This document shows, piece after piece, positions 26,000 to 64,000 of a stretch of 64,000 nt of DNA. The notes beneath the pieces are model-generated. The model was not told the origin of the DNA and made no database searches. It saw nothing but the letters and a program-made list of their open reading frames with translations. Both the position numbers and the translations under genes were made by a program. Source of the DNA: Citrobacter sp. Cu233 (GTDB lineage Bacteria > Pseudomonadota > Gammaproteobacteria > Enterobacterales > Enterobacteriaceae); assembly GCF_030332225.1 (NCBI RefSeq), contig NZ_JAOWIF010000035.1:248001-312000 (forward strand), given 5' to 3'. How positions within the stretch are numbered: the first letter of the stretch is position 1; each line of letters starts with the position of its first letter.

Positions 26000-26012
26000 T
26001 TATTCAGATATC

Positions 26013-26066
26013 GCAGATATGTTAAATTCATTCTTATACAATCGCTTTGCTATTTAACATATCTGC
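26013..26066. terminator. 15-bp perfect inverted repeat between waaC and the GT25 gene
   Basis: GCAGATATGTTAAAT (26013-26027) is exactly complementary to ATTTAACATATCTGC (26052-26066), with a 24-base spacer. The flanking genes converge, so it could act as a two-way transcription barrier, but no T-tract follows. Confidence 0.5.
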
Positions 26067-26127
26067 AGCTGACTAAAACTATGCACTATATCGTATTTCA
26101 TCCACGGTTAAGCATTATTGCATTCAT

Positions 26128-26898
26128 CTACTTCCACCAACATAATCCGAGAATCATTCGTCGGGCATGCCAGTATGAGGATGAAATTTTACGTCTGAAA
26201 AGTGATTTCTGCTTTTTCTTGTGGCTCTTTATCTCTTTACGTTCTTTCTCTAACCAGCTCCCGGACAACTCTTCAGGGTGATGGACAAAGTTTGCCAGGT
26301 ATATATCAGAAAAATAGCCCTGGCGCATCAGATATGCCCATTCATCTATGATGAAAAAGTTATTTTCAAAACGGGAAACAAGTTTTTGAGCTGTTACAGA
26401 ATTCATTAAATAACCGCAGGCTCGTAAAACATACCCATGACCAAATATGACCTTACCGAAGGTCTGGCCACCAATTTTCTTGAGCTTAACCAAATTTAAG
26501 ACAACTTTATTCTTATACCTTAAACCATCCTGCCCACCAAGTAGGTATAACGCGTCTTTATTGAGAACACTTTCATCGACAGTCGATATAAATTCCTTAA
26601 AATTCTGATCAATTATCGCGTCATCCTCAAGAATACAAACCCAATCTTGTCCACTCTGCCCAAACTGTTTGAATGCCTTCATATGGCTTAGTGAGCAACC
26701 CAGTTCACCATCAGTAGGCGTATGATTTTCCCTGTGCTGAAAGTCAGTTAACGGTATCTTGCTCTTATCTTCGGCAGACAAATTTTTTCCATAGATAGCA
26801 TCAACGAACGAATACTCGATATTTAATTCATTCATTATATCTGATACGCGTTTTCGTCGGGCATCGTCAAAAGGAAGCGAAATGACCAGCACGTGCAT
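26128..26898 (-). CDS. LPS core glycosyltransferase, family 25
   Basis: A 256-residue GT25 enzyme. The family landmarks are the N-terminal VLVISLPFDDARRKRV, the GELGCSLSHMKAFK block (residues 64-77) and the acidic metal/nucleotide site VCILEDDAII with Glu91, Asp92 and Asp93. GT25 members of E. coli R-type cores (WaaV/WaaX group) add glucose or galactose to the outer core; the sugar and linkage here cannot be assigned. It is the last gene of the waaQ-waaG-waaP run, 127 bases after waaP, and is AT-rich. Confidence 0.82.
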   Translation of the reverse strand: MHVLVISLPFDDARRKRVSDIMNELNIEYSFVDAIYGKNLSAEDKSKIPLTDFQHRENHTPTDGELGCSLSHMKAFKQFGQSGQDWVCILEDDAIIDQNFKEFISTVDESVLNKDALYLLGGQDGLRYKNKVVLNLVKLKKIGGQTFGKVIFGHGYVLRACGYLMNSVTAQKLVSRFENNFFIIDEWAYLMRQGYFSDIYLANFVHHPEELSGSWLEKERKEIKSHKKKQKSLFRRKISSSYWHARRMILGLCWWK

Positions 26899-27025
26899 GA
26901 GTTCAAACCCTCTAATATAATTAAGCCAGCACAGTCATCGTGAAGTAAAGATTAACAATTACTGGCCAGCTGAATAAACTTAATTAACTATTCTATGTAG
27001 CTATACAAAGTCTATTACTTCATAT

Positions 27026-27823
27026 TTATAGTTTATTTTTTGATGTATGATTAATAATTTTATTAGTTTTTCTTGCATAGCTTGCAAAGAGATCAGACTC
27101 ATCATGAATGATTGTATTAATGTCTTTTTGAAAGTATATCTTCAAAAATCTAACGTAGTCTCTTTGCGTTAACCCGATGTTTAACGAGGAGAAGTACAAA
27201 CCAATCAGATCTTTATTTCGCCAACGAATAGGAACCGCATTTCTTATCTGAGCCCGGTGCAGATCAATAACCGACAGTTTGAACGTATTATCCTCAAAAT
27301 TGGCCGGTTGATGTAATAAGAAGTGACAGAGATAGCAATCACGGTGATTAACGCCTCCCTGATGCATCCTTCTGACCATAATGGCAAGACGCTCAATTAA
27401 TGCCATTTTCACTTTTCGCGAAGGCGGATTCACCAGCCAATCTGCGCAATAGTCTTCCAGGCTAACCGCCGGACTCAGATCTTCCGTTATAATAAATGAG
27501 ATACGGTTGAGCGGATTTATACCTTGTTGCCCGAAACCAACACCATGCATTGTATCAACATCCAGTTCCTGCAAACGGTGTATAGCATTCCATTCTCTAT
27601 CAGCACCGAGTACCGGCAAACGTAAAGAGAATAAGTTCTTGATAACTTCCTTCAGTTTAGTGCCCTGGTGCCATTTCAGGAAATAGCTTTTACCTGCAAT
27701 CTCAAACCTTATCGTTCTACGCGTTTCGAGCTGTCTAAATGTTTCTCCCTGCAGCTTCTGCACTTCAGAAAAAGCATCTTTCCCTTTCCACAAGGATAAA
27801 AATGGTTCTTTTAAATCAACCAT
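27026..27823 (-). CDS. waaP: LPS core heptose I kinase
   Basis: Phosphorylates heptose I of the inner core, a modification needed for outer-membrane integrity. The 265 residues equal the E. coli length. It is a kinase-fold enzyme with catalytic Asp162 in [12 protein letters not shown] and the second conserved Asp in VIDLHRAQ. The ATG at 27823 follows AGGTGG by 5 bases and gives the conserved MVDLKEPF start; a GTG three codons upstream is less likely. It overlaps waaG by 8 bases, so the genes are translationally coupled. Confidence 0.96.
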
Positions 27824-28940
27824 GGGTACCACCTATAATAATATCAGCTGCTTTCTCAGGTAGACTATAAAGGTCTTGAGTATCAGCAAAGTGTTGTGCA
27901 TTATCTTTCCATGCTTTTCTCTGCCCTGAGTCAGTTAAAGAAAAATAAACAGCTTCATCTAATAATTTTTGTTCGAACGGTTCATCAATAACAATGCCGC
28001 ACTCAGCATCTTTAATATAATGGGCATATCCGCAAACTGCCGTTGTTATAACAGGTAAGCCTGCTGCAATAGCTTCAACCAGCACGATCCCTGCGGCTTC
28101 CTGGTATGCCGGATGAATCAATAGATCGGCCGCTGCCATTAACTCTGAGACATCATTACGGCCAGGGAAGAACTTGATATTGTCAGCAACACCATACTCT
28201 GCTGCCAGCTTTATATAGCGTTCAGGCTTATCCTGGCCCACAACAAACAGAATCGTTTGCTTGCGGACAGCTTCCGGTAAGGAAGCGATCGCCTTGATAG
28301 TTCTGTCGACACCCTTACGGGTAAAATCAGAACCAATTTGTATAATTAAATACTGGGAATCACTGATATCATTTTCTTTCCTGAAGCTAGCTCTACAATT
28401 TTTTGGCTGATAGCTGTATTTTCTGTCAGGATAAATCCCCGGAGGAAGGATATGAAAACGCGCTTGCTCAGTATGATAGTGCTTCTGAAAATCCGCAATT
28501 TGCTTATCTGTTAGCATCAACAGCTGTGTTGATTTTCCCTCAGCAAATGTTGCTTCCTCAAAGGCAGCATAATGCCGATATCGTGGTGTCAGACGATAGA
28601 GCAAACCTTTTTCTTGCGCGACTTTTTCTGCGTAACAAACATCAGCAGCATAATAAACATCTAATCCAGGCATTTTATTGAACCCAACGACCCGGTCTAC
28701 TGGATTACTCTCAAGATGTTTACTAACCCACCGATGATACTCAGCATTTTTCCCGTTGTTGGAGCAAGACTTCACAGGAACAATGATGATTTCCAGGCTG
28801 TCTGGAATATTTCCTTGCCATGATTGCGTGTAAACCCGAACATGATGTCCACGTGATGCGACTGTCGATGCTATGCGTAAAAAATCACGCTGCAACCCAC
28901 CGAAAGGGAAATATTTATACAAACAGAAGGCAATAACCAT
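27816..28940 (-). CDS. waaG: LPS glucosyltransferase I
   Basis: Adds the first outer-core glucose to heptose II. The 374 residues equal the E. coli length. It is a GT4, GT-B enzyme: acceptor-side [14 protein letters not shown] at the N-terminus and the donor-site pair Glu281/Glu289 in [12 protein letters not shown]. It is the middle gene of the waaQ-waaG-waaP operon, 20 bases after waaQ and overlapping waaP. Confidence 0.96.
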
Positions 28941-28960
28941 TTTAATATCCGAATGCTTTA

Positions 28961-29989
28961 TTAATCGAGTTTAGGTAACCGTGACGCTATGGCTGCAATC
29001 ACGTCTTCCGCAGGTATAACAGATAAATATTTCTTACTTCGATCAAGTTTTTCACGCACAGGCATTGGTTGGTAATCACCAGCCCAAAATTGAACCACAT
29101 CATCAGACCATGGTCGCCAGGCGATATGATCGGTAGCGCCAAAAAGACAAATGATGGGCGTTTTAACCGCTGCGGCAATATGCATCGGAGCAGAGTCGAC
29201 GCCAATGAAAAGTACAGCATGATCAATTAATGCAGCAAGCTCAGGGAATGTTGTCTTCCCGGCGATTCCAGTTAAAGGTTTCGTTTCACACGCCCTGGCG
29301 ATCTCATCGACGCAGGCAATATCGCTGGCACCGGGTCCAGAAGTCAGTACAACCTGATACCCCAAATGATGTATCGCATCAATCACCAGTGAGAATCTAT
29401 CATTCTCCCACGACTTGAATTCTTGTCTCGCCGTAGGCTGTATAACAACATACTTCTGGGTATCAACCTGAGGAAGTTTTTTCCGAACAGATTGCCAGAC
29501 CTGCTCACCATAAACCATTTTCAATACCGGGACGGATTCTTTTAGGTTTAATGGCGTCAGCACAGACAAATTACGTTCAACCCAATGATCGCCACTTAGA
29601 GGAACGTGATGAGTAAAACTGTCGCGCCAGAATTTCTTATTTCTGTGCGAAAAATCATGTGTCAACTTTATTGGGCAATCCAGGCAGCGACACAGCAAAG
29701 CAACAATCCACTGATCGGTAAGGTTGACCACTAAATCATAATGATTACCGCGTAGTGCCTTGATCAGCGATAAGAAATTTTTTACTTTCTCAAAAGCAGA
29801 GCTCTTTTTATTTTTTATGCCATACAAAGCATGGATATCGGGATTTTCAGATAAAATAGGAATGGTATCTTCGTAGAGTAAAACATCAATATCAGCATCA
29901 GGATAATTTTTTTTAAGCGTGCTGATGACCGGTGTGGTTAGCAACATATCGCCGTGAAAGCGCATTTTTATTACCAGGATCTTTTTCAC
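28961..29989 (-). CDS. waaQ: LPS heptosyltransferase III
   Basis: Adds heptose III to heptose II of the inner core. The 342-residue GT9 protein begins KILVIKMRFHGDMLLTTPVIS and carries the donor-binding FIGVDSAPMHIAAAVKTPIICLFG segment. It is the first gene of the waaQ-waaG-waaP-GT25 operon, preceded at 30025-30063 by a JUMPstart/ops element. WaaQ is required before heptose II phosphorylation in E. coli, which is relevant to the separate WaaY-like gene at 18194. Confidence 0.95.
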   Translation of the reverse strand: MKKILVIKMRFHGDMLLTTPVISTLKKNYPDADIDVLLYEDTIPILSENPDIHALYGIKNKKSSAFEKVKNFLSLIKALRGNHYDLVVNLTDQWIVALLCRCLDCPIKLTHDFSHRNKKFWRDSFTHHVPLSGDHWVERNLSVLTPLNLKESVPVLKMVYGEQVWQSVRKKLPQVDTQKYVVIQPTARQEFKSWENDRFSLVIDAIHHLGYQVVLTSGPGASDIACVDEIARACETKPLTGIAGKTTFPELAALIDHAVLFIGVDSAPMHIAAAVKTPIICLFGATDHIAWRPWSDDVVQFWAGDYQPMPVREKLDRSKKYLSVIPAEDVIAAIASRLPKLD

Positions 29990-30024
29990 ACTCTACCCTT
30001 TCAGGTTATTGTTAATTTTCAAAT

Positions 30025-30063
30025 CACGCTACCGCCCCAGGCTCAACAGCTACCTGTGTACTG
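30025..30063 (-). promoter_or_regulatory. JUMPstart element with RfaH-recruiting ops site upstream of waaQ
   Basis: On the minus strand, CAGTACACAGGTAGCTGTTG (30044-30063) is followed by AGCCTGGGGCGGTAGCGTG (30025-30043), a full match to the JUMPstart layout. The ops core GGCGGTAGCGTG is at 30025-30036. In E. coli this pauses RNA polymerase in the waaQ leader and recruits the antiterminator RfaH; the same leader is the source of the RirA RNA. The element is 36 bases before the waaQ start codon. Confidence 0.92.
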
Positions 30064-30203
30064 CAGAACACACCATCTTATTTTATCGTTTATATTATAC
30101 CACTATTCACTTGACAATTCGATATCTATGAAAATTTTCTATGTGAACGAGAGAATAAATGAATACTAACAATGCATGAGACTATCTATCATGTTATGAA
30201 TAT

Positions 30204-30238
30204 TGAGCCTATATTCTCAACTACGTCACATAGGCTCA
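30204..30238. terminator. Hairpin between waaL and the waaQ leader
   Basis: TGAGCCTAT (30204-30212) pairs with ATAGGCTCA (30230-30238) across a 17-base loop, just past the waaL stop. TTTT follows on the plus strand only; on the minus strand, the direction of waaL, the 3' side reads AATATTC, so termination of waaL here is plausible but not strong. Confidence 0.5.
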
Positions 30239-30254
30239 TTTTAATGTTAATTCG

Positions 30255-31505
30255 TTACTCTGCCGACTCATTTTTGTCATACAACATCAGGATAGCTATG
30301 CTGTATAACAAAAAGACATTTATAAACATTTTTTCAAATAAACAATATATAAGAATGTAGCCAACGAGAGAACACAGTAATGAAATGCTAAAAATATCCT
30401 TTTGGTTCCTGGCGCGGGCGTATATATCTTTAAAGGTAATAAAAAAAGCTGCAATAAATAAAAGCAGACCGATGCTCCCGACATTATAAAAAATTATCAT
30501 AAAAAATGGTTCATCTATATTATAACTCTTATTCCGTTCAGAATATACCCCACCATTTTTCGGCGCGTTATGGTCCTCTAAATACTGGTTGTATGTAGAA
30601 TTTCCATACCCAATGCCAAAGACGGCATTGTTGATATTTTTCATTACTAAAGGGAAACGGTCTGAGATGATTTCATCACGACTGGATGTGACGTTATTCA
30701 TTTGCAGAGTTTGATCGACTTTCATTTTTACCTGACCCACTGTGTTGTAGGCCCCGGTAAGCAAAGCAACCATTATAAATAGCAAGCCGCAGGTAGCAGC
30801 CATAAATCTCTTGATGGTTTTACTCACCAGAAATGAAATCAGGAAAATCTCTACAACAACTGCTAAGATTCCTGCCCGACTCCCGGTGTATGATAAAAAA
30901 ACAAATGCAAGCGCAGAAATGATATACAATACTGTTTTCAGAAAGTGATTCTTGAATAAGATCGCCCCTGTTAATACAAAAGGAAATAGCATAACAACAT
31001 AGAATGCGAAGCCATAGCGAAGCTGTAAATACAGTTCCTGTGGGTTATTTTTTATAATTCTTAAAATTGGTACCACTAAGACAATATAGGATAGAGTCAG
31101 TATCGCACCAATGACAAAAAACTGTCTCAGTGAGGTGATATGTTTACTGAATGCTCCGAAAAATAACATCATCACTAGCGGGTAACGCCAGTCTTTTATC
31201 AATATGATAAAGGCATCAAGAGATTTCTCTTTATAGGTAAAAAACACAATACAAAAAATACACCACAGCGTGAAGAGTAACAATATTTTTCTCTTCTGCA
31301 TAAGGTCGATGACAATATTCTTAATGTCTATTTTATTGGCTCTAATATAATAAATAGATAAACCTACAGCGAGCAAAGAGGTCATATTTAGCACCCCTTG
31401 ATTATCTATCGTAAATAAACCAAAAATCATTAAGATCAATACAACTTTGCTTAAAATCAAGATATTACCATTTTGACTGTATCTTACTTGATTCATAGAA
31501 TTCAA
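30255..31505 (-). CDS. waaL: O-antigen ligase
   Basis: A polytopic inner-membrane enzyme that transfers O-antigen from undecaprenyl pyrophosphate to the completed core-lipid A on the periplasmic side. The 416 residues contain about 11-12 hydrophobic segments. The Wzy_C/O-antigen ligase domain shows TGSRAGILAVVVEIFL and the large periplasmic loop between about residues 270 and 345 (NAVFGIGYGNSTYNQYLEDH). The protein is highly divergent between core types, so the call rests on topology, family motifs and location. Unlike E. coli it is not next to waaC; it lies upstream of waaQ on the same strand. Very AT-rich. Confidence 0.85.
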   Translation of the reverse strand: MNSMNQVRYSQNGNILILSKVVLILMIFGLFTIDNQGVLNMTSLLAVGLSIYYIRANKIDIKNIVIDLMQKRKILLLFTLWCIFCIVFFTYKEKSLDAFIILIKDWRYPLVMMLFFGAFSKHITSLRQFFVIGAILTLSYIVLVVPILRIIKNNPQELYLQLRYGFAFYVVMLFPFVLTGAILFKNHFLKTVLYIISALAFVFLSYTGSRAGILAVVVEIFLISFLVSKTIKRFMAATCGLLFIMVALLTGAYNTVGQVKMKVDQTLQMNNVTSSRDEIISDRFPLVMKNINNAVFGIGYGNSTYNQYLEDHNAPKNGGVYSERNKSYNIDEPFFMIIFYNVGSIGLLLFIAAFFITFKDIYARARNQKDIFSISLLCSLVGYILIYCLFEKMFINVFLLYSIAILMLYDKNESAE

Positions 31506-31807
31506 ATCTCACTTCTTCAAATAGCCTTGTTAATCAACAACAAACACTTGCTCACATGATTTATGGGGCATATCTTATTATATAACATCGTAAAAATCCC
31601 CCATTAATTTTAGTCTCTTCCTCTCACTGTGTTTCTTCGTTCTACCCACAAAAAAAACACAACATAACATCATGATTAATAAATAAAATTTAGCCACCAA
31701 GTATCTCTTTCCTTCCTTTACAGTTTGTTCTATTCTATGCCCACAGGAGAGCCATTTTGTCTTACATAAACACGCGTGCACTCTGAAAGAATCAAAAGGA
31801 AAAAGAT
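31506..31807. other. AT-rich divergent gap between waaL and the GT8 gene
   Basis: This 302-base gap separates two divergent genes. Both strands are strongly AT-rich, so several -10-like matches occur and none can be singled out. I found no ops core and no stable hairpin. I see no small ORF with a convincing ribosome binding site. Confidence 0.5.
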
Positions 31808-32797
31808 GTGAAAGCAAATATAATAAAATATATTAAGAATGCACATATTAATAATGACGACAACAACATTACATGTGTCAATATTACCTATGGCGCTGAC
31901 AAACCGTTTCTTTATGGTACGGGCGTTTCAATTACATCGGTACTTTTAAACAACCGGGATCTGAACTTCCACTTCCATATTTTCACTAATTATCTTGACG
32001 AACATCAACTTCATCTTTTTTCAGTCCTGGCAAGTCAATACAATACCCATATTACATTTTATGTGCTGGATGATAATGAATTAAAAAATCTACCTACAGC
32101 ATCTAAGGCATGGAATTATTCAATCTATTTCAGACTTATTGCAATCGATTATTTTGCCGATAAACTCAGCAGCATTATATATCTTGACTCTGATATTATA
32201 TGTAAAGGAAGCCTGACCTCGTTACTCACGGAAGAATTTAATGGCAATGTATTAATGGCTGTCCATGATAGCTTTGTCGATACGTCTGCTGTTGCCGGTA
32301 TCAATCCAGGCCGGTACTTCAACTCAGGCTTCATGTATTTTAATCTTCCAGAATTAAAAGATACTAATCTGACTCTGCAGGTCATTTCAAAGGTCAATGA
32401 AAACCGTTTCTCACATCCCGATCAGGATGCGTTGAACGTTCTCTTCAATGATCGCGTAAAAATTCTGGACCATAAATTCAATTCATTCTTTAACATCGAT
32501 ACGTTAGCCAAGAAAGGTGGTGATGCCTTTAAAATCACATCACAAACGGTATTCATTCACTATGTCGGCGTCACGAAACCCTGGCATGACTGGGCGCAAT
32601 ATTACGCTGAGGTCGAATACTTCAAAATAGCCAGAGAGAATTCGCCGTGGAAAGATATTCCTTTATTGGCACCCACTACGTATAAACAGCTATCACGGAA
32701 AAGCACACATTTAAAACACAATGGCCAACTCCTCGGTGCTTTTATTTTCTATGTTAAGTATTTAATTAACAAATACCAAACACAGAAAAAACGCTAA
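31808..32797 (+). CDS. LPS core glycosyltransferase, family 8 (WaaI/WaaO/WaaT-like)
   Basis: A 329-residue retaining GT8 enzyme of the LPS core group. VNITYGADKPFLYGTGVSITS at the N-terminus, the metal-binding DSD at residues 127-129 (IIYLDSDIICKGSL), YFNSGFMYFNL and the C-terminal HYVGVTKPWHDW match the UDP-glucose/galactose alpha-transferases WaaO, WaaI, WaaJ, WaaR and WaaT. Which of these activities applies cannot be decided by eye. The start is GTG at 31808, with AAGGA about 8 bases upstream. It lies on the waaA side of the cluster, opposite in direction to waaL, an unusual position. Confidence 0.82.
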   Translation: MKANIIKYIKNAHINNDDNNITCVNITYGADKPFLYGTGVSITSVLLNNRDLNFHFHIFTNYLDEHQLHLFSVLASQYNTHITFYVLDDNELKNLPTASKAWNYSIYFRLIAIDYFADKLSSIIYLDSDIICKGSLTSLLTEEFNGNVLMAVHDSFVDTSAVAGINPGRYFNSGFMYFNLPELKDTNLTLQVISKVNENRFSHPDQDALNVLFNDRVKILDHKFNSFFNIDTLAKKGGDAFKITSQTVFIHYVGVTKPWHDWAQYYAEVEYFKIARENSPWKDIPLLAPTTYKQLSRKSTHLKHNGQLLGAFIFYVKYLINKYQTQKKR

Positions 32798-32821
32798 TAC
32801 TTTGATATTATTGTCTTTTCA

Positions 32822-32890
32822 GGAATGGTTATGTCTCTGGCATATTCCATAAAAAGATCGATTTTTATGACCATAACCATTCCGTTTTTT
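32822..32890 (+). terminator. Terminator after the GT8 gene
   Basis: GGAATGGTTATG (32822-32833) pairs perfectly with CATAACCATTCC (32872-32883), followed by GTTTTTT. A second stem, ATAAAAA/TTTTTAT, is nested inside the loop. It separates the GT8 gene from waaA. Confidence 0.8.
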
Positions 32891-33043
32891 GCCTTCCACA
32901 GCAGAGATTACAAAGCGGGACAACACAACTCAGCCCCCCTTTCTCGTGATCCGTACAGTTTCCTCAAAAAATCAGCAAAAATGATGGTAAAGCCATAGTT
33001 AAATACATAGAATCCCCAGCACATCCATAAGCCAGCTACTATT

Positions 33044-56319: not shown

Positions 56320-56414
56320 GGAAGATCGTCATCTCCGGTGAGGTGGCTGGACTTCAAATCCAGTTGGGGCCGCCAGCGGTCCCGGGCAGGTTCGACTCCT
56401 GTGATCTTCCGCCA
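56320..56414 (+). tRNA. selC: tRNA-Sec (selenocysteine, anticodon UCA)
   Basis: A 95-base tRNA with the 8-bp acceptor stem GGAAGATC/GATCTTCC typical of tRNA-Sec, followed by encoded GCCA. The anticodon TCA is at 56354-56356 within GGACTTCAAATCC. The long variable arm (TTGGGGCCGCCAGCGGTCCC) and T-arm GCAGGTTCGACTCCTGT are clear. It decodes UGA as selenocysteine with SelA, SelB and SelD. selC is a classic integration site for pathogenicity and other islands, and an integrase follows 162 bases downstream. Its 3' end is the likely attachment core. Confidence 0.98.
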
Positions 56415-56526
56415 ATTAGCCTCTACTGAACTCCACTGTCTCAAGTAAATCCCCTATAATACCCGCAATTAAAGCTGATTATGTTCTCCCGAGGTCTACT
56501 GTCTCTACCAGAATCAAGTGCATTCT

Positions 56527-56575
56527 GGGGGCATAATGGGGGGCATGATTTATAGCCCCATTTTGAGATGCCCCC
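56527..56575. promoter_or_regulatory. Clustered GGGGCAT repeats before the integrase gene
   Basis: GGGGGCAT (56527-56534), GGGGGGCAT (56538-56546) and its inverse ATGCCCCC (56568-56575) lie within 50 bases, with AGCCCCAT (56553-56560) as another partial copy. Repeats like these near an attachment site may be arm-type binding sites for the integrase or its excision factor, or its own operator. This is inferred from position. Confidence 0.45.
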
Positions 56576-56576
56576 A

Positions 56577-57761
56577 ATGAAGCTAACAGTCAGACAAATC
56601 GACACAGCCAAGCCTAAAGAGAAGCCGTATAAGCTATCTGATGGTGGAGGCCTCTACCTTGAAGTAACTACCAACGGCTCACGTTACTGGCGTTTAAAGT
56701 ATCGCTACGCAGGTAAAGAAAAGCGTCTTGCTTTCGGCGTTTATCCCGAGGTTTCTCTCGCTCAAGCACGCGAAAAGCGTGATGCTGCGAAAAAGCTGCT
56801 GTCTGCTGGAAGCGATCCCGGTGAAGTAAAGAAAGCAGAGAAAATTGCCCAAAAGCTTAACTATGAAAATACCTTCGAAGCTATTGCCCGTGAATGGCAT
56901 CAGTTGAGAGCGGATCGTTGGTCATTACGCTATCGAGATGAAATTATTGATACCTTTGAAAAGGATATTTTCCCCTACATCGGTAAGCGCCCTATAGCTG
57001 AAATTAAGCCCATGGAATTGCTGGAAACCCTTCGTCGTATGGAAAAGCGTGGTGCATTAGAAAAGATGCGCAAAGTCAGACAGCGCTGCGGTGAAGTATT
57101 CCGTCATGCGATTGTGACCGGACGCGCTGAATACAATCCAGCACCCGATCTCGCCACAGCCCTCGCAACACCAAAGAAAACACATTTTCCATTCCTGACA
57201 GCCGAAGAACTCCCTCACTTTCTTAGGGATCTTGCCGGTTACACCGGTAGCGTTATTACCAAGACTGCGACTCAAATCATCATGCTTACAGGGGTACGAA
57301 CTCAGGAATTACGTTTTGCCCGCTGGGAGGATATCAATTTTGAAAAGCGGCTTTGGGAGATCCCTGCTGAAGTGATGAAGATGAAACGACCACACATCGT
57401 TCCGATGTCGGGTCAGGTTGTCGAGCTCTTTGAGTCACTTAAACCTATTACCGGGCTATACCCACTGGTATTCGTCGGACGCAACGATCGAACGAAGCCG
57501 ATCTCAAAGGAAAGCGTTAATCAGGTTATTGAGTTATTGGGATATAAAGGAAGGCTGACAGGACATGGTTTCCGCCACACGATGAGTACCATCCTCCATG
57601 AAGAAGGTTTTAACTCAGCGTGGATAGAAACGCAGCTAGCACATGTGGATAAGAACGCGATACGTGGGACTTACAACCATGCACAGTATTTGGAGGGGCG
57701 GAGAGAAATGATGCAGAAGTATGCAGATTATGTAGAAAGATTAGCCTCTCGAGGTGTGTGA
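56577..57761 (+). CDS. Tyrosine-type site-specific integrase (P4 family) of the selC island
   Basis: A 394-residue P4-type integrase. The N-terminal DUF4102 arm-binding domain (KLTVRQIDTAKPKEKPYKLSDGGGLYLEV) is followed by the core-binding and catalytic domains. Numbered from the ATG at 56577, the catalytic residues are Arg241 (TGVRTQE), His330 and Arg333 (GHGFRH), His356 (QLAH) and Tyr366 (GTYNHAQY). An ATG three codons earlier (56568) is also possible; neither has a strong ribosome binding site. Its position beside selC indicates that it inserted the island at the tRNA 3' end. It looks intact and may still be active. Confidence 0.95.
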   Translation: MKLTVRQIDTAKPKEKPYKLSDGGGLYLEVTTNGSRYWRLKYRYAGKEKRLAFGVYPEVSLAQAREKRDAAKKLLSAGSDPGEVKKAEKIAQKLNYENTFEAIAREWHQLRADRWSLRYRDEIIDTFEKDIFPYIGKRPIAEIKPMELLETLRRMEKRGALEKMRKVRQRCGEVFRHAIVTGRAEYNPAPDLATALATPKKTHFPFLTAEELPHFLRDLAGYTGSVITKTATQIIMLTGVRTQELRFARWEDINFEKRLWEIPAEVMKMKRPHIVPMSGQVVELFESLKPITGLYPLVFVGRNDRTKPISKESVNQVIELLGYKGRLTGHGFRHTMSTILHEEGFNSAWIETQLAHVDKNAIRGTYNHAQYLEGRREMMQKYADYVERLASRGV

Positions 57762-57775
57762 AAATTCAGCAGTAT

Positions 57776-57830
57776 AAAGATTCTCAACCCCTATTAGCAT
57801 TCTTATAATAGAGATTGAGAATCTTTTTTT
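57776..57830. terminator. Bidirectional terminator between the integrase gene and ietS
   Basis: AAAGATTCTCAA (57776-57787) pairs with TTGAGAATCTTT (57815-57826) across a 27-base loop, followed by more T residues on the plus strand. The A-rich left flank gives a short T-stretch on the minus strand too, so it can serve both convergent genes. Confidence 0.8.
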
Positions 57831-57861
57831 CCACCTATCTTAAAAGCTAAATACTTTATAT

Positions 57862-60252
57862 TTAACTTACCCGAGCCCTGGAACGCTCCTGCTCACGAAT
57901 TCGTGCCTCAATTTCGGCATAAAGATTAGCTTCAGCGTTTTCTCTGTCCGTTGCAGTAACAACTAATGCATAAGGTTCATGTTGGCTATTAAGTGGGGTG
58001 CCCCACTCACGATCATTTCTAGTTACAACCACAAACCACTTTTCATCTGGAGACCTTTGCTTAAAAGTCCAACTAGAGGATTGTACTGTACCATGATCAC
58101 GTTGTTGTGCAGTAATAGAACGATTGCTTACCGCATCGTCATTCCTAGAATCAGTACCATCTTGTATATCATGATTAAAGTATTGCTGAACATCTTGCAA
58201 CGAAGAACCTTTAACAAGCCTGTAAGATATTTGTGTTGCTGTATAATCTAATCGCGTTGTCCTGACTGCTGGTGAATACGCTAAAGTAATGTGCAGTTCT
58301 CTTACTGCTCGCTGAGTTCTTAAAAAAGATGTAGGTAATGGAAGCTCAAAGAATTGATGAGTGTCATCAGAGATTTGCTCTTCACACATCATAACAACTA
58401 CTTCCTCGGACGAGCGATATAAACCATCTTCCTCAACAATTCCATATCCAACGACATCTCGAATAACACTACGATTTCGGGTTGAAGGTTCAGATTTATA
58501 ATGTTCTGTAACCTCTTCTGAGAACGTATTCTCCATCTGCGGTGTCAGCGCTGCGTGATTGACAAGCATAGCTCGCAACATATTAGCAGACATATCTGGA
58601 TATTCATTGAGTAAACGTGCAGCGAGGTGCGTGATATAAGGAGCAGAAAAACTAGTTCCACTTTGTTCAGAGAAAAGTGTACTTCCTTGGAATTGATGGT
58701 GGCAGCTTAGCACACCAAGTCCTCTGGCATGTTGTCGCCATTGACCTCCAGCATTACGCATAGGTGCCGCAAAGTTTCCACCGTGCGCAACTATTTCTGG
58801 TTTAAATGCACCTTTCACAGAAGGTCCATGCCGCGTGAATGGCGAAGGTTGATATTCACCTGCAGGGCTTAAATGGCTAATTTCATCAGCACGACGTTGA
58901 GCGTCAAATGTTGCATTATGCCTTGCATAGCTTCCTGCCGTTAGAGCATTGAGTGCGGGCGCTGGATCAATAATAACTGAGCTATCGTGGATTAAATAGC
59001 TGGGATACTCTGCCCGCCAACTTTCTACTGGAACATCAGGGTCAATGCTACCATTAAAATTACCTGCGGAAACTACGAAAAGAATATTGTGACGCCTCGC
59101 CAGCACATCAAGCACATAAGCAATACCTCGGATGTGCTTTCCATCGTAAGGCGCATTTGCATTGCCAAGTGATAAGTTAAAAATACGACATCCTAGACCA
59201 ACGAAATATTCTACTGCTTCGGTCAAAGTTGTTTCAATCGTAGCAGTATCAAATTCCCCTTGGGCATTAAGAATTTTGCCATTATATAACCACATTGACG
59301 GTTGCCAGAAATTACTAGCATCGCAAGCCTCAACATCACCATATAGGGCAATACCTGCAACAGCAGTACCATGTCCAAAATGGTCAGATTCATCTTCATT
59401 ATCCACGAAGCAGGCACTCTCAGCTATTGCACTACGCAATAATGGATGTGCGGTATTAATTCCACTATCAAGGATGCAAACTTTTACGGCATTAGGTAAT
59501 GGAGATGGGATATATTCGGGGATAAAATTGATATCTTTGTTCAGTTTCTCATACGAGATTCCACTGACAGGAAGACGGTCCACCATTCGAACATCACGGT
59601 GCTCAAGCAGTTTTTCAGCTTGCTCTAAATTTACTCTTACCCGGTACATCAGCAAACTATCAAGATTAATTCTATCCAAGCGATGAATCATATTTTCACG
59701 GAGCCAGTTTTCAAATTCTCCGCAGATCCGAGCTCGAGAAGGATGTTGTGTCGTTTCTACCGGCCACAGCTCAACATCTAGACCAAAGGAATCTGAATCA
59801 GGAAACCCATACTGTTTCACTGACCAGCTTTTGCGATCCTCATTAGTCCAAACATCAACGCTATCCAATGCGGTTAAAATTTGCTGGTAGGTTATATGAG
59901 CGTGACCAAGCTGTGAAAGGTGTTCCTCAAAAAGAGCGATTCCTCGTTCATCAGCAAAGGCAATACATATTGTTTTATCTTCTTGACTGACGAACTCTAT
60001 TCCATGCCTATCCATATGAGCAATATCTAACATCCCGGTATACTGTAACTTCAGCATATACCGACCATCATTATCCTTTCCTGGAATTTGTGGATTAGCT
60101 AATTGTGTAATGCTTCGTAATTGCTCAGACAAAATGCGTCCATGTAAGCGCAAGTCAGCACGCTGTGTTCTCGGAATTTTGAACTGGCGTGTGCGTCTAG
60201 GGTTCTGAAGAGATTCTTTAGCAATACTAAGATGTTGATATTGTTCCGTCAT
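57862..60252 (-). CDS. ietS: Subtilisin-like serine protease, putative IetS anti-phage defence component
   Basis: A 796-residue S8-family protease. The triad is complete: Asp262 in VCILDSGIN, His294 in HFGHGTAVAGI and Ser534 in SGTSFSAP; the oxyanion Asn398 is in VVSAGNF. About 245 residues of uncharacterised sequence precede the protease domain and about 250 follow it. There is no signal peptide or membrane segment, so it should act in the cytoplasm, which is unusual for subtilases. It starts 3 bases after the AAA+ ATPase gene. That pairing is the architecture of the IetAS defence system; the gene symbol is given on that basis, not from a search. Confidence 0.83.
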   Translation of the reverse strand: MTEQYQHLSIAKESLQNPRRTRQFKIPRTQRADLRLHGRILSEQLRSITQLANPQIPGKDNDGRYMLKLQYTGMLDIAHMDRHGIEFVSQEDKTICIAFADERGIALFEEHLSQLGHAHITYQQILTALDSVDVWTNEDRKSWSVKQYGFPDSDSFGLDVELWPVETTQHPSRARICGEFENWLRENMIHRLDRINLDSLLMYRVRVNLEQAEKLLEHRDVRMVDRLPVSGISYEKLNKDINFIPEYIPSPLPNAVKVCILDSGINTAHPLLRSAIAESACFVDNEDESDHFGHGTAVAGIALYGDVEACDASNFWQPSMWLYNGKILNAQGEFDTATIETTLTEAVEYFVGLGCRIFNLSLGNANAPYDGKHIRGIAYVLDVLARRHNILFVVSAGNFNGSIDPDVPVESWRAEYPSYLIHDSSVIIDPAPALNALTAGSYARHNATFDAQRRADEISHLSPAGEYQPSPFTRHGPSVKGAFKPEIVAHGGNFAAPMRNAGGQWRQHARGLGVLSCHHQFQGSTLFSEQSGTSFSAPYITHLAARLLNEYPDMSANMLRAMLVNHAALTPQMENTFSEEVTEHYKSEPSTRNRSVIRDVVGYGIVEEDGLYRSSEEVVVMMCEEQISDDTHQFFELPLPTSFLRTQRAVRELHITLAYSPAVRTTRLDYTATQISYRLVKGSSLQDVQQYFNHDIQDGTDSRNDDAVSNRSITAQQRDHGTVQSSSWTFKQRSPDEKWFVVVTRNDREWGTPLNSQHEPYALVVTATDRENAEANLYAEIEARIREQERSRARVS

Positions 60253-60255
60253 TTA

Positions 60256-61242
60256 TTATCCCTGACGAGTTTTGTTTATATTTTCCCGTAAAAGTGCATT
60301 CTTAAGATCTTTGAGAGTCAAAAACTCTTGGCTACGTAAAATCATTCTCTTGATTGCACGTCTTACAATCCGTTCTAAATCAGCACCACTTTTTCCAATG
60401 AATAGTGAGAGAACCTCATCGTCTTCAAGCTCAAACTGGCGGCGAATACCACGAAGTTTGAGTTTCATCAATTCTGACAACTGATGTTTATCGGGTAGTG
60501 GAAACTCGATAGCATCGTCAAAACGCCTCCAAATAGCACTATCCAGGATATGTTCATGGTTTGTTGCTGCAAGAATTAAGCTTTTTCCTTGGTATGCATC
60601 CATCATTTGTAAAACAGCATTCACAACTCGTCTTAACTCACCATGATCCCCACTATCCCCACGTTCTTTACCTATAGCATCAAACTCATCGAAGAGTACA
60701 ACCATTGGGTATTGAGAGATAAAATCAAATATTTGGCGTAGGTTAGCAGCAGTTTCACCAAGATATGAAGAAACCAAAGTATCAAGCCTGACGATAGCCA
60801 ACGGCATATCCAATTCACAAGCCACTACTTCTGCAGCAAGAGTTTTACCGCACCCAGGAGGACCAAAAAAAATAACTTTGCTGATAGCTTTCATTCCGTA
60901 AGTGCGTAACACATCAGCCCTACGATTTTCTTCAAGTATCTCTTCGACAGCATCTGAACTTGATTCAGGTAGTACGATTTCATCTAAAGAACGACTTGGC
61001 TGTCTAATATCTAGCAAGGGCAAGCCTCGTTCTTTGTCCACTGGCACTGGAGGTGCAGCGGGCACTCGAGAGGTTTGTATCGCGTGATCACCATAAAGAA
61101 TATGTTCAAGGTCATTGGCAAGAAGATGATGTTGTTTTTGTCGTTCTTCTTCAATGATCACTTCCGAAACACGACGGAAGGCCGCGACATCACCTGTCGC
61201 TCCAGCTTTTATAAGCTGTCTGAGAACCTTACCGTTAGCCAT
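60256..61242 (-). CDS. ietA: AAA+ ATPase, putative IetA anti-phage defence component
   Basis: A 328-residue single-domain AAA+ ATPase. Walker A is GPPGCGKT (residues 127-134), Walker B VVLFDEFD (181-188), the pore-loop-like YLGET (160-164), sensor 1 Asn228 in AATNHE, and the arginine-finger pair Arg239-Arg240 in IWRRFDD. The fold resembles the FtsH/spastin group but has no membrane segment or protease domain of its own. The first 80 residues are a helical N-domain. It is the first gene of a two-gene operon with the subtilase (3-base gap), so it probably unfolds or gates a substrate for that protease. The substrate and trigger are unknown. Confidence 0.82.
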   Translation of the reverse strand: MANGKVLRQLIKAGATGDVAAFRRVSEVIIEEERQKQHHLLANDLEHILYGDHAIQTSRVPAAPPVPVDKERGLPLLDIRQPSRSLDEIVLPESSSDAVEEILEENRRADVLRTYGMKAISKVIFFGPPGCGKTLAAEVVACELDMPLAIVRLDTLVSSYLGETAANLRQIFDFISQYPMVVLFDEFDAIGKERGDSGDHGELRRVVNAVLQMMDAYQGKSLILAATNHEHILDSAIWRRFDDAIEFPLPDKHQLSELMKLKLRGIRRQFELEDDEVLSLFIGKSGADLERIVRRAIKRMILRSQEFLTLKDLKNALLRENINKTRQG

Positions 61243-61543
61243 CTATTTTCCCCTGAACATACACATACAAATCAAACCTTGAGTTCAGTTTAGCATCGGC
61301 GTTACGCCATAAGAAGTTCGTTCTATCAACATTTCGTGAATCCCTAAAGATTTTATTTGCATATCAGAACGGAGGTTAAACCCTTTAGGAAGTTGTATAA
61401 AAAATATTAATATCAATAAGTTAATCAAATCACTTATATCAGTTAAAAAATTTTCACGACAATGATTATATATGTTTTTTCGAATGTATTATTGCGATTT
61501 TAGACCTACAGAGTATCCTGTTATTAAACCTATCGGAGGACAG
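61243..61543. promoter_or_regulatory. Divergent promoter region between ietA and arsR
   Basis: A strongly AT-rich 301-base gap serving the defence pair on one side and the ars operon on the other. Besides the operator-like site at 61468-61487 and the arsR Shine-Dalgarno GGAGGA at 61535-61540, I see no further gene. Several TATAAA/TATATT-like hexamers occur, and no single promoter can be chosen by eye. Confidence 0.5.
61468..61487 (+). promoter_or_regulatory. ArsR-type operator upstream of arsR
   Basis: ATATATGTTTTTTCGAATGT lies 57 bases before the arsR start. Its CATATATGTTTTT-like core resembles the protected region of known ars operators. A nearly identical copy (19 of 20 bases) lies at 61910-61929, which supports a binding-site function. 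Confidence 0.65.
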
Positions 61544-61894
61544 ATGCTAGTCACTTCCCTACAACTCTTCAAAAATCTCTCTGATGAAACTCGTCTGGGC
61601 ATCGTGCTGCTGCTTAGAGAGATGGGAGAGCTGTGCGTGTGCGACCTTTGCACTGCACTAGAACAGTCACAGCCCAAGATCTCCCGCCACCTGGCAATGC
61701 TCCGGGAAAGTGGTCTATTGCTGGATCGCAAACAGGGCAAGTGGGTTCACTACCGCTTATCCCCGCATATTCCTTCCTGGGCCGCTCAGGTGATTGAGCA
61801 GGCCTGGTTAAGCCAACAGGACGACGTACAGGTCATCGCCCGTAAGCTGGCATCGGCAAACTGCTCTGGTAGCGGTAAGGCTGTTTGTATCTAA
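61544..61894 (+). CDS. arsR: Arsenite-responsive repressor ArsR
   Basis: A 116-residue ArsR/SmtB-family winged-helix repressor that leaves DNA when it binds As(III) or Sb(III). The inducer-binding cysteines are Cys31, Cys33 and Cys36 in ELCVCDLC, inside the first helix of the DNA-binding motif (SQPKISRHLAMLRESGLL). The ATG at 61544 has GGAGGA 3 bases upstream; a longer frame from 61472 would include the operator. It leads the arsRDA operon. Confidence 0.96.
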   Translation: MLVTSLQLFKNLSDETRLGIVLLLREMGELCVCDLCTALEQSQPKISRHLAMLRESGLLLDRKQGKWVHYRLSPHIPSWAAQVIEQAWLSQQDDVQVIARKLASANCSGSGKAVCI

Positions 61895-61909
61895 AAAATT
61901 TGCCTGAAC

Positions 61910-61929
61910 ATATATGATTTTTCGAATGT
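61910..61929 (+). promoter_or_regulatory. Second copy of the ars operator between arsR and arsD
   Basis: ATATATGATTTTTCGAATGT differs from the site upstream of arsR at one position only. It lies 15 bases after the arsR stop and 12 bases before the arsD start. ArsR or ArsD bound here could block elongation or control an internal promoter for arsDA. Confidence 0.6.
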
Positions 61930-61941
61930 GAGGTATTCAGA

Positions 61942-62304
61942 ATGAAAACGTTAACGGTGTTTGACCCGGCAATGTGCTGCACTACCGGCGTATGTGGCTC
62001 AGATGTCGATCAGGTTCTGGTTGATTTTTCTGCTGATGTGCAGTGGCTGAAAGGACGTGGCGTACAGGTTGAACGTTACAACCTGGCGCAGCAGCCCATG
62101 AGCTTTGTTCAGAATGAGAAAGCGAAAGCATTCCTCGAAGCATCTGGGGCAGAAGGGCTTCCGTTACTGCTGTTAGACGGTGAAACGGTGATGGCAGGGC
62201 GATACCCAAAACGTGCTGAGCTGGCTCGCTGGTTCGGTATTCCGCTGGAGAAGGTAGGGCTAGCTCCCACCAGCTGCTGTGGTGGTAATACTTCCTGTTG
62301 CTGA
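61942..62304 (+). CDS. arsD: Arsenite metallochaperone ArsD
   Basis: A 120-residue protein that carries As(III)/Sb(III) to the ArsA ATPase and acts as a weak second repressor of the operon. The vicinal cysteines are Cys12-Cys13 with Cys18 (the chaperone site), Cys112-Cys113 and Cys119-Cys120 at the C-terminus. GAGG precedes the ATG. It is followed after 17 bases by arsA, its partner. Confidence 0.97.
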   Translation: MKTLTVFDPAMCCTTGVCGSDVDQVLVDFSADVQWLKGRGVQVERYNLAQQPMSFVQNEKAKAFLEASGAEGLPLLLLDGETVMAGRYPKRAELARWFGIPLEKVGLAPTSCCGGNTSCC

Positions 62305-62321
62305 ATATGTCAGGAGGACAT

Positions 62322-64000
62322 ATGAAATTCTTACAGAATATCCCGCCTTACCTGTTTTTTACCGGTAAGGGAGGTGTAGGAAAAACTTCCATTTCCTGCG
62401 CGACGGCTATCCGTCTTGCCGAACAGGGTAAGCGGGTTTTGCTGGTCAGTACCGATCCTGCCTCGAATGTCGGACAGGTATTCGATCAGGCTATCGGTAA
62501 TACCATTCGCCCTGTGACGGCAGTTCCTGGGCTTTCTGCTCTGGAGATTGACCCGCAGGAAGCCGCCCAGCAATACCGCGCCAGAATCGTTGATCCTATC
62601 AAAGGTCTTCTGCCTGATGACGTTGTTAACAGTATCAGCGAACAGCTTTCAGGAGCCTGTACGACTGAGATTGCGGCGTTCGATGAGTTTACTGGCTTAC
62701 TGACCGACGCTTCTCTGCTGACCCGCTTTGATCACATCATTTTTGATACAGCGCCGACGGGCCACACGATTCGCCTTCTCCAGCTTCCCGGTGCCTGGAG
62801 TAGCTTCATTGAAAGCAATCCAGATGGTGCTTCCTGTCTTGGCCCAATGGCCGGGCTGGAAAAGCAGCGTGAGCAGTATGCTCACGCAGTAGAGGCGTTA
62901 TCCGATCCTGATCGTACCCGACTGGTTCTGGTTGCACGACTGCAAAAATCTACACTGCAGGAAGTCGCCCGCACCCATGAAGAACTGGCTGCGATTGGGC
63001 TGAAAAACCAGTACCTAGTGATTAATGGTGTGCTGCCTACAACTGAAGCTGAACATGACGCCCTGGCCGCTGCGATATGGCAACGGGAACAAGAAGCGCT
63101 GGCAAATCTTCCTTCCGGGTTATCTGAGTTGCCGACAGACAGCTTATACCTTCAGCCGCTGAACATGGTTGGTGTCTCCGCGCTGGAAGGCCTGCTAAAC
63201 GAATATGCTGAATCAGCATCGCTTCCTGTACAGAGCGAGAGCATGCAGATCAAGCCAGAGAATGTGTCGCTGTCTGCCATGGTTGATGATATCGCCCGTA
63301 GTGAACACGGTTTGATTATGCTGATGGGCAAAGGTGGCGTAGGTAAAACCACGATGGCTGCTGCCATCGCCGTCAGGCTGGCGGATATGGGATTTGATGT
63401 CCATCTCACCACCTCAGATCCCGCTGCACATCTCAGTGCAACGCTCAATGGAAGTCTCAAAAATCTGCAGGTCAGCCGAATCAACCCTCACGATGAAACT
63501 GAACGCTATCGGCAGCATGTTCTTGAGACGAAAGGCAGGAATCTGGATGAGATAGGGAAACGGCTGCTCGAAGAGGATTTACGTTCTCCTTGCACGGAAG
63601 AGATTGCGGTGTTCCAGGCGTTCTCACGCGTAATCCGTGAAGCAGGCAAACGGTTTGTGGTCATGGATACGGCACCTACCGGGCATACGCTATTACTGCT
63701 TGATGCTACCGGGGCTTATCACCGTGAGATTGCCAGGAAGATGGGGGATAAAGGTCATTTTTCCACTCCGATGATGCAGCTTCAGGACCCGGAACGCACC
63801 AAAGTCCTGCTGGTCACTCTGCCTGAAACCACACCGGTACTGGAAGCGGCAAACCTGCAGTCCGATCTTGAGCGTGCTGGGATTCATCCGTGGGGCTGGA
63901 TTATCAATAACAGCCTTTCCATTGCGGATACGCGTTCTCCGTTGCTTTGCCAGCGCGCCCGGCAGGAACTACCTCAGATTGAGGCTGTTAAGAATCAGCA
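62322..64000 (+). CDS. arsA: Arsenite efflux pump ATPase ArsA (3' end outside window)
   Basis: The ATPase that energises ArsB-mediated arsenite export. The frame is open from the ATG at 62322 (AGGAGGA 5 bases upstream) to the window end: about 559 of an expected 583 or so residues. Two homologous halves are visible, with P-loops GKGGVGKTS at residues 15-23 and GKGGVGKTT near 334-342. The metal-site cysteines Cys113 (SGACTTE), Cys172 (GASCLGP) and the one near 422 (RSPCTEE) are all present, as is the DTAPTGHT signal motif in both halves. arsB and arsC would be expected beyond the window. Confidence 0.96.
   Translation, partial: MKFLQNIPPYLFFTGKGGVGKTSISCATAIRLAEQGKRVLLVSTDPASNVGQVFDQAIGNTIRPVTAVPGLSALEIDPQEAAQQYRARIVDPIKGLLPDDVVNSISEQLSGACTTEIAAFDEFTGLLTDASLLTRFDHIIFDTAPTGHTIRLLQLPGAWSSFIESNPDGASCLGPMAGLEKQREQYAHAVEALSDPDRTRLVLVARLQKSTLQEVARTHEELAAIGLKNQYLVINGVLPTTEAEHDALAAAIWQREQEALANLPSGLSELPTDSLYLQPLNMVGVSALEGLLNEYAESASLPVQSESMQIKPENVSLSAMVDDIARSEHGLIMLMGKGGVGKTTMAAAIAVRLADMGFDVHLTTSDPAAHLSATLNGSLKNLQVSRINPHDETERYRQHVLETKGRNLDEIGKRLLEEDLRSPCTEEIAVFQAFSRVIREAGKRFVVMDTAPTGHTLLLLDATGAYHREIARKMGDKGHFSTPMMQLQDPERTKVLLVTLPETTPVLEAANLQSDLERAGIHPWGWIINNSLSIADTRSPLLCQRARQELPQIEAVKNQ

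Follow-up and report, generated by a model that had tools for sequence, protein, structure and literature searches.

A divergent IetAS-family ATPase-subtilase operon in a selC island of Citrobacter and a candidate mechanism of ATP-gated proteolysis

In a 64,000-nt stretch of DNA from Citrobacter sp. Cu233 (contig NZ_JAOWIF010000035.1, positions 248,001-312,000; the whole stretch is referred to as the window), two adjoining genes, ietA and ietS, encode an AAA+ ATPase and an S8 subtilase that, judged from their sequences, almost certainly belong to the IetAS family. The operon is of an already known defence-database kind, and its branch lies far from that of the named reference type. That it is an IetAS-type defence operon working as an ATP-gated, phage-triggered intracellular protease is the reading we rank first, and we consider the case for it evenly balanced. 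The two genes are as follows.

60256..61242, minus strand: ietA, AAA+ ATPase, 328 aa (PADLOC PDLC02196, 350.6 bits; PF00004)
57862..60252, minus strand: ietS, S8 subtilase, 796 aa (PADLOC PDLC02198, 1163 bits; PF00082)

The genes are separated by 3 bp (bases 60253-60255), with ietA first and ietS second along the direction of transcription, and the operon DNA matches a single site in the 4.79-Mb genome. An earlier note on this DNA had read them as an IetAS-type pair, had proposed a search with hidden Markov models of defence systems, and had named as refutation the lack of an IetA/IetS match together with a clearly better match to an unrelated family. When that search was run, the best PADLOC matches of the pair were IetS and IetA, and the refuting outcome did not arise. 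IetS aligned nearly full length (residues 4-794, expectation value (E) 0) and IetA over residues 2-324 (E 3.3e-105), values at which the matches are not due to chance. Both genes are intact with complete active sites, and the open reading frames and invariant catalytic residues agree with the note's description of an AAA+ ATPase and a complete-triad subtilisin 3 bases apart on an integrase-borne selC island, including its numbering of Lys133 and Ser534. By PADLOC profiles, adjacency (judged from the gap and the pairing control given below, without PADLOC's own rule file), ATPase-first order and intact catalytic residues alike, the pair is IetAS. Promoter-like and terminator-like sites were not enriched over shuffles (9 vs 9.9 and 3 vs 2.7, respectively).

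The pair falls far below the cut-offs of the NCBIfam IteAS equivalogs (NF042956 and NF042959): IetS scored 137.5 bits against 900 for IteS, and IetA 269.5 bits against 510 for IteA. None of 295 family genomes and none of 369 class genomes reached the IteS cut-off. Two plasmid proteins exceeded it (1002 and 1058 bits) and matched a different PADLOC model, PDLC02197, best. One NCBI-named IteA partner, from Dongshaea, is itself under the 510-bit cut-off (456.5 bits). A 100/100 branch parted the window IetS from the NCBI-type proteins in a tree of 39 proteins (IQ-TREE), a single tree with all rows kept that drew long-branch warnings, above all for the G247 and G257 rows, with two other IteS-like rows forming very long branches, and composition warnings for several rows, the two NCBI-type rows included. 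Since the PADLOC models are matched and the NCBI cut-offs missed, we assign the pair to PADLOC-class IetAS as the divergent subtype PDLC02198, not to the NCBI equivalog; the earlier reading thus stands for the broad class and not for the narrow IteAS type.

Gene pairing was consistent across distant loci. Genome contigs held at least 79 loci, of which, among the matches listed, 32 (L041-L072) were taken as IetS and 47 as other subtilases; with the alignment query, viral contigs gave 18 loci, 15 taken as IetS and 3 as other. Among the matches listed, IetA (>100 bits) lay directly upstream in 46/47 IetS loci and 0/50 other-subtilase loci, the 47th IetS locus (L072) holding an IetA fragment of 82 bits. 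The IetA profile was partly built from the tested IetS loci, and the comparison therefore tests position relative to the control rather than homology; the loci compared extend at most ~7 kb on each side. Counted over 57 loci, IetA was directly upstream of IetS in 55, the exceptions being L072 and L135, a generic subtilase, and the ietA-ietS order was the same in proteobacteria as on contigs of acidobacteria, planctomycetes and Methanoperedens. Eight viral-contig loci (L127-L134) encode longer, more distant IetS relatives of 860-944 aa with IetA upstream; three of them (L129, L130 and L134) form their own branch in the tree and may represent a further subtype. S8 subtilases are mostly secreted enzymes, and a secreted or unrelated subtilase could adjoin an ATPase by accident. 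We regard this explanation as having a negligible chance of being right, given the pairing control, the 3-bp spacing and the absence of a visible hydrophobic N-terminal segment or signal sequence in IetS, which was judged by eye only.

The features of IetA that bear on its function are listed here.

61093..61236, minus strand: three-helix N-terminal region, residues 3-50, moderate confidence (AlphaFold2; conservation)
60523..60846, minus strand: motor residues (alignments including p97 D2)
60844-60846, minus strand: Lys133 codon
60763-60765, minus strand: Tyr160 codon
60685-60687, minus strand: Glu186 codon
60523-60528, minus strand: Arg239/Arg240 codons

By prediction IetA is a motor resembling PAN and p97, and the aromatic residue of its pore loop is conserved. 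In an alignment of 46 IetA (L072, L128, L028-L033 and L035-L037 left out), the Walker A Lys133, Walker B Asp185/Glu186, Asn228 and Arg239/Arg240 were invariant in all 46. The AlphaFold2 model (46 sequences; mean predicted local distance difference test (pLDDT) 86.8, predicted template modelling score (pTM) 0.74) has a low-confidence linker between the three-helix N-terminus and the AAA+ module. In a fold comparison whose rows mainly cover residues 65-328, PAN was the nearest match to the AAA+ module (3h4m; Z 26.1, root-mean-square deviation (rmsd) 2.3, 250 aligned), and rows for FtsH, Rpt and p97 came no more than 2.5 Z behind. Position 160 is Phe in 25/46, Tyr in 19/46 and Leu in 2/46; in a profile alignment the IetA motif SsyLGe falls on TMWFGE of p97 D2, position 160 corresponding to the Trp of Trp-Phe-Gly, a site which we take to be pore loop 1.

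For IetS, the corresponding features are these.

59830..60087, minus strand: N-terminal domain 1, residues 56-141, predicted beta-alpha-beta-beta-alpha-beta (AlphaFold2)
59503..59829, minus strand: N-terminal domain 2, residues 142-250, predicted beta-alpha-beta-beta-alpha-beta, directly before the catalytic domain (AlphaFold2)
58414..59493, minus strand: catalytic domain, residues 254-613 (Pfam, alignment, structure comparison)
59467-59469, minus strand: Asp262 codon
59371-59373, minus strand: His294 codon
59059-59061, minus strand: Asn398 codon
58651-58653, minus strand: Ser534 codon
57949..58413, minus strand: C-terminal beta-sandwich, residues 614-768, KP-43-like (predicted; VIA-align 1wmd)

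The triad Asp262, His294 and Ser534 and the oxyanion Asn398 were invariant in 37/37 aligned IetS (left out were the truncated L057, L061 and L072, the distant L127-L134, and L028-L033 and L035-L037). The earlier note had called the two ends of the protease unassigned and had suggested that they could sense phage components or dock the ATPase; they have no Pfam match, and the AlphaFold2 model (37 sequences; mean pLDDT 85.4, pTM 0.79) now gives them predicted folds, two N-terminal alpha/beta domains and a KP-43-type C-terminal beta-sandwich. Short helices ignored, the N-terminal domains run strand-helix-strand-strand-helix-strand at residues 65-134 and 156-226, and a C-terminal helix is modelled at 777-795. 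Fold-comparison rows mainly covered residues 236-622, and KP-43 (1wmd) aligned with model residues 254-767 (VIA-align; Z 29.2, rmsd 2.7, 374 aligned). In the predicted model, the strand-helix order of domain 2 and its place in the chain are those of a subtilisin propeptide, and in Foldseek the Tk-SP chain with its propeptide (3afg_A; E 3.5e-24, 654 columns, 505 residues) scored better than the chain without it (9ues_B; E 3.2e-19, 526 columns, 409 residues), the propeptide-bearing chain being told from titles and residue numbers. Glu161-Leu162-Trp163 in domain 2 is invariant in 37/37 IetS. Column entropy per 25 residues was 1.9-2.5 over residues 1-250 and 1.3-2.4 over 251-600, and the N-terminal part of IetS is therefore more variable overall. 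A genome search with a profile of domain 2 matched only the window's own genome (1/21), so that no separate copy of the domain emerged from this search.

The conserved pairing and close spacing of the genes, taken with the complete active sites and the pore loop, suggest an ATPase that acts on, or feeds, the protease, and the N-terminal domains adjoining the subtilase suggest control of its activity. We somewhat favour a physical complex of IetA and IetS in which the ATPase gates the protease. In the mechanism we propose, IetA would assemble into a ring and, using ATP, pull protein via its conserved aromatic pore loop, while IetS would be a cytoplasmic subtilase kept quiet by propeptide-like N-terminal domains. 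On sensing phage DNA replication, IetA would remodel IetS, most likely at the N-terminal domains, and the freed IetS would cut phage or host proteins, stopping infection, possibly via cell death. The specific step in which a pull on the N-terminal domains would free the protease is a tentative idea that we think unlikely as it stands, and we hold equally loosely the fuller version, an ATP-gated zymogen in which a PAN/p97-like motor strips a propeptide-like domain from a cytoplasmic subtilase upon phage replication. To our knowledge, such a route of subtilase activation is known from no other system.

Several observations weigh against this ATP-gated reading. Pfam recognised no propeptide in any of the 37 IetS members and matched none of two N-terminal fragments and one C-terminal fragment. 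When each N-terminal domain was searched by profile against the PDB, no significant match resulted (best E 0.78 and 0.069), the one match of domain 2, to a GTP-binding protein at E 0.78, being at chance level. The better Foldseek value for propeptide-bearing Tk-SP may be misleading, as a longer target alone can lower the E-value. The 3afg propeptide did not superpose together with the catalytic domain (the VIA-align range starts at model residue 229), and the Foldseek rmsd was ~20 A for propeptide-bearing chains such as 3afg and 3whi; the placement of the propeptide-like domain therefore differs or is mispredicted. None of 10 further proteins of the selC island (ars genes excluded) matched PADLOC, so that a second defence system is not shown by the island. 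The proposed trigger has in its favour a paper that lists ietAS among systems activated by phage replication components, although this is a second-hand statement on IetAS in general (PMC10732053); in another paper ietAS is tabulated under mutations of functional phage proteins (PMC10286901).

The same evidence bears on a second reading, an ATP-dependent degradation machine in which IetA would recognise one given phage (replication) protein, unfold it and thread it into IetS, with no switch-like release of a zymogen. The nearest folds of IetA are the motors PAN, Rpt, FtsH and p97, of which PAN and FtsH feed proteases, the pore-loop aromatic is conserved, and phage replication components are tied to ietAS in both papers (PMC10732053, PMC10286901). 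Against these points stand the two extra N-terminal domains, which a degradation machine does not obviously need, and the KP-43-like catalytic and beta-sandwich domains of the predicted IetS model, KP-43 being a single open enzyme and not a chambered protease ring. We infer a ranking in which the ATP-gated protease comes first and the degradation machine, possible yet doubtful, second.

In the genus, 3/17 genomes held a match at E 0.001, the full-length protein being present only in the window's genome and the other two matches being partial (27-28%). The family sample gave matches in 19/392 genomes, with a full-length relative in five: the window's own, G197 (rounded 100%), G250 (61%), G290 (60%) and G326 (30%). 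Matches were found in 492/72,556 plasmid records, 48 of them covering at least 80% of the query; phage records gave partial subtilase matches in 10, none spanning 80% of the query, and viral contigs scanned with the window IetS alone gave no match. Enterobacteria contribute four copies to the tree, which were scattered among those of other bacteria, and the ietS of G290 (L036 8118-10496) was almost identical to that of Idiomarina loihiensis (L043 6992-9370); together these indicate repeated transfer, and the latter similarity points to a very recent transfer across orders. The group statistic of the tree covers labelled rows only and has no bearing on this conclusion. On two P. aeruginosa plasmids (H4 and H7) the ietS match was split in two, one with an IS30 transposase annotated beneath the match. 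Breakage was considered to be commoner in ietS than in ietA (truncation in L057 and L061, a split match in H4 and H7), but with four cases and a gene 2.4x longer the difference is not significant.

This distribution is relevant to the view that the subtype does not serve defence and instead provides its mobile element with a protease for regulation or quality control, or with a stabilisation module. Relatives are carried on plasmids, three P. aeruginosa plasmids have metal-efflux genes alongside, and the NCBI IteAS cut-offs are missed; in addition, a Pf-phage study could not test ietAS, as the phage carrying it yielded no lysogen (PMC11878078). The PADLOC IetS model of this subtype nevertheless spans the whole protein, and the same study reports that IetAS is statistically associated with resistance to phage in P. 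aeruginosa, a correlation with the subtype unspecified (PMC11878078). SIR2 genes occur in 2/12 and patatin in 1/12 annotated plasmid regions with a subtype relative, and a Shedu gene adjoins an NCBI-type pair, all as raw counts without a control. On balance we find a non-defence role quite improbable.

The operon lies next to an integrase at the selC end of an island, where the following features were identified.

56320..56414, plus strand: tRNA-Sec gene (selC), integration site (ARAGORN; Rfam RF01852)
56568..57761, plus strand: tyrosine integrase, 397 aa (Pfam PF22022, PF13356, PF00589)

The left attachment (att) core begins at 56393, at the selC 3´ end, and 15 exact bases of this end (22 when a single missing base is tolerated) are repeated 21.9 kb rightwards at extended coordinate 78319, beyond the window; homology with the island of E. 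coli ET650 stops just past the repeat. That genome, the sole close match among 5426 complete E. coli genomes, has the selC site, integrase and right end in common with the window island; it retains only the 3´ part of ietS, adjoining IS1 (L002 15001-16452), and its 31-kb stretch showed no ietA. G197, of another genus in the family, carries selC, integrase, ietS, ietA and ars genes in identical order (L034 13282-16689). Identity to G197 per 500 bases was 0.980-0.998 over 56501-61000, and identity to ET650 lay in the same range until ~59300 (mid-ietS), where the ET650 copy ends, compared with 0.73-0.86 in the flanking chromosome for both and 0.77-0.99 in the remaining island against G197 (61001-72000). 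A block at 98-99.8% against ~80% in the chromosome indicates that integrase and ietAS were transferred recently, and its identity above that of the rest of the island indicates that they spread later than most neighbouring cargo. The window and G197 differ by 21 synonymous and 3 nonsynonymous changes over both genes, and for more distant pairs the whole-gene ratio of nonsynonymous to synonymous rates (dN/dS) was ~0.02-0.06 where dS was computable, dS being near or past saturation; this substitution pattern in ietA and ietS fits purifying selection.

The island cargo also includes a YagK/YfjJ-type protein, DUF932, RadC and a CbeA/CbtA pair, the CbeA antitoxin and CbtA toxin lying at the right end (L003 13484-14209), where E. 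coli ET650 has a similar pair. Beside ietAS are two convergent arsenic gene sets, named from open reading frames only (window 61472-64000 with L003 83-1852; L003 1883-5763). Just beyond the right end is a 920-aa autotransporter (L003 14676-17438; Pfam autotransporter beta-domain, pertactin). Elsewhere in the window, positions 26001-33000 have 33-43% GC, versus mostly near 50-55% around them.

The mechanism of IetAS is called undescribed or unknown in papers from 2023 and 2025 (PMC9958689, PMC11878078). A literature search found no mechanism in the parts consulted, which included PMC9958689, PMC11878078, PMC10286901, PMC10732053 and PMC12629846, and no experiment on the PDLC02198 subtype was found in the material consulted. 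The window operon is compact and intact and has moved recently among enterobacteria. The layout predicted for it (in IetS a pair of N-terminal domains, the catalytic domain and the beta-sandwich, in IetA the pore-loop motor) defines mutants that could separate a gated zymogen from a degradation machine. This analysis adds the predicted folds of the protease ends, the transfer of the integrase-ietAS block, the pairing control and that sharper set of mutants.

Compared with known systems, the window pair agrees with PADLOC IetAS (PDLC02198 and PDLC02196) over nearly the whole length, in gene order and in active sites; for IetS no difference was found in this comparison, whereas PDLC02196 scores NCBI-type IetA higher (452 and 488 bits) than the window IetA (350.6). 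With NCBI IteAS, for example on Acidovorax and Dongshaea plasmids, it has in common an AAA+ gene followed by a subtilase gene, the triad and the motor motifs, at ~26% identity over the IetS catalytic part and 37-39% over the ATPase core. The three NCBI-type IetA compared bear a C-terminal extension that the window IetA lacks and in which Pfam names no domain; a helix-turn-helix suspected there by eye was not recognised by Pfam. IetS has, in its predicted model, the catalytic domain and C-terminal beta-sandwich of KP-43 (1wmd) and the propeptide-like order before the catalytic domain of Tk-SP with its N-propeptide (3afg). KP-43 and Tk-SP are secreted single enzymes; unlike them, IetS has an ATPase as partner and carries two domains at its N-terminus. 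IetA, finally, has in common with the PAN, p97 and FtsH motors the AAA+ fold, the pore-loop aromatic and the paired arginines, and differs from them in having one AAA+ module, a short three-helix N-terminus, no fused peptidase and a subtilase as partner.

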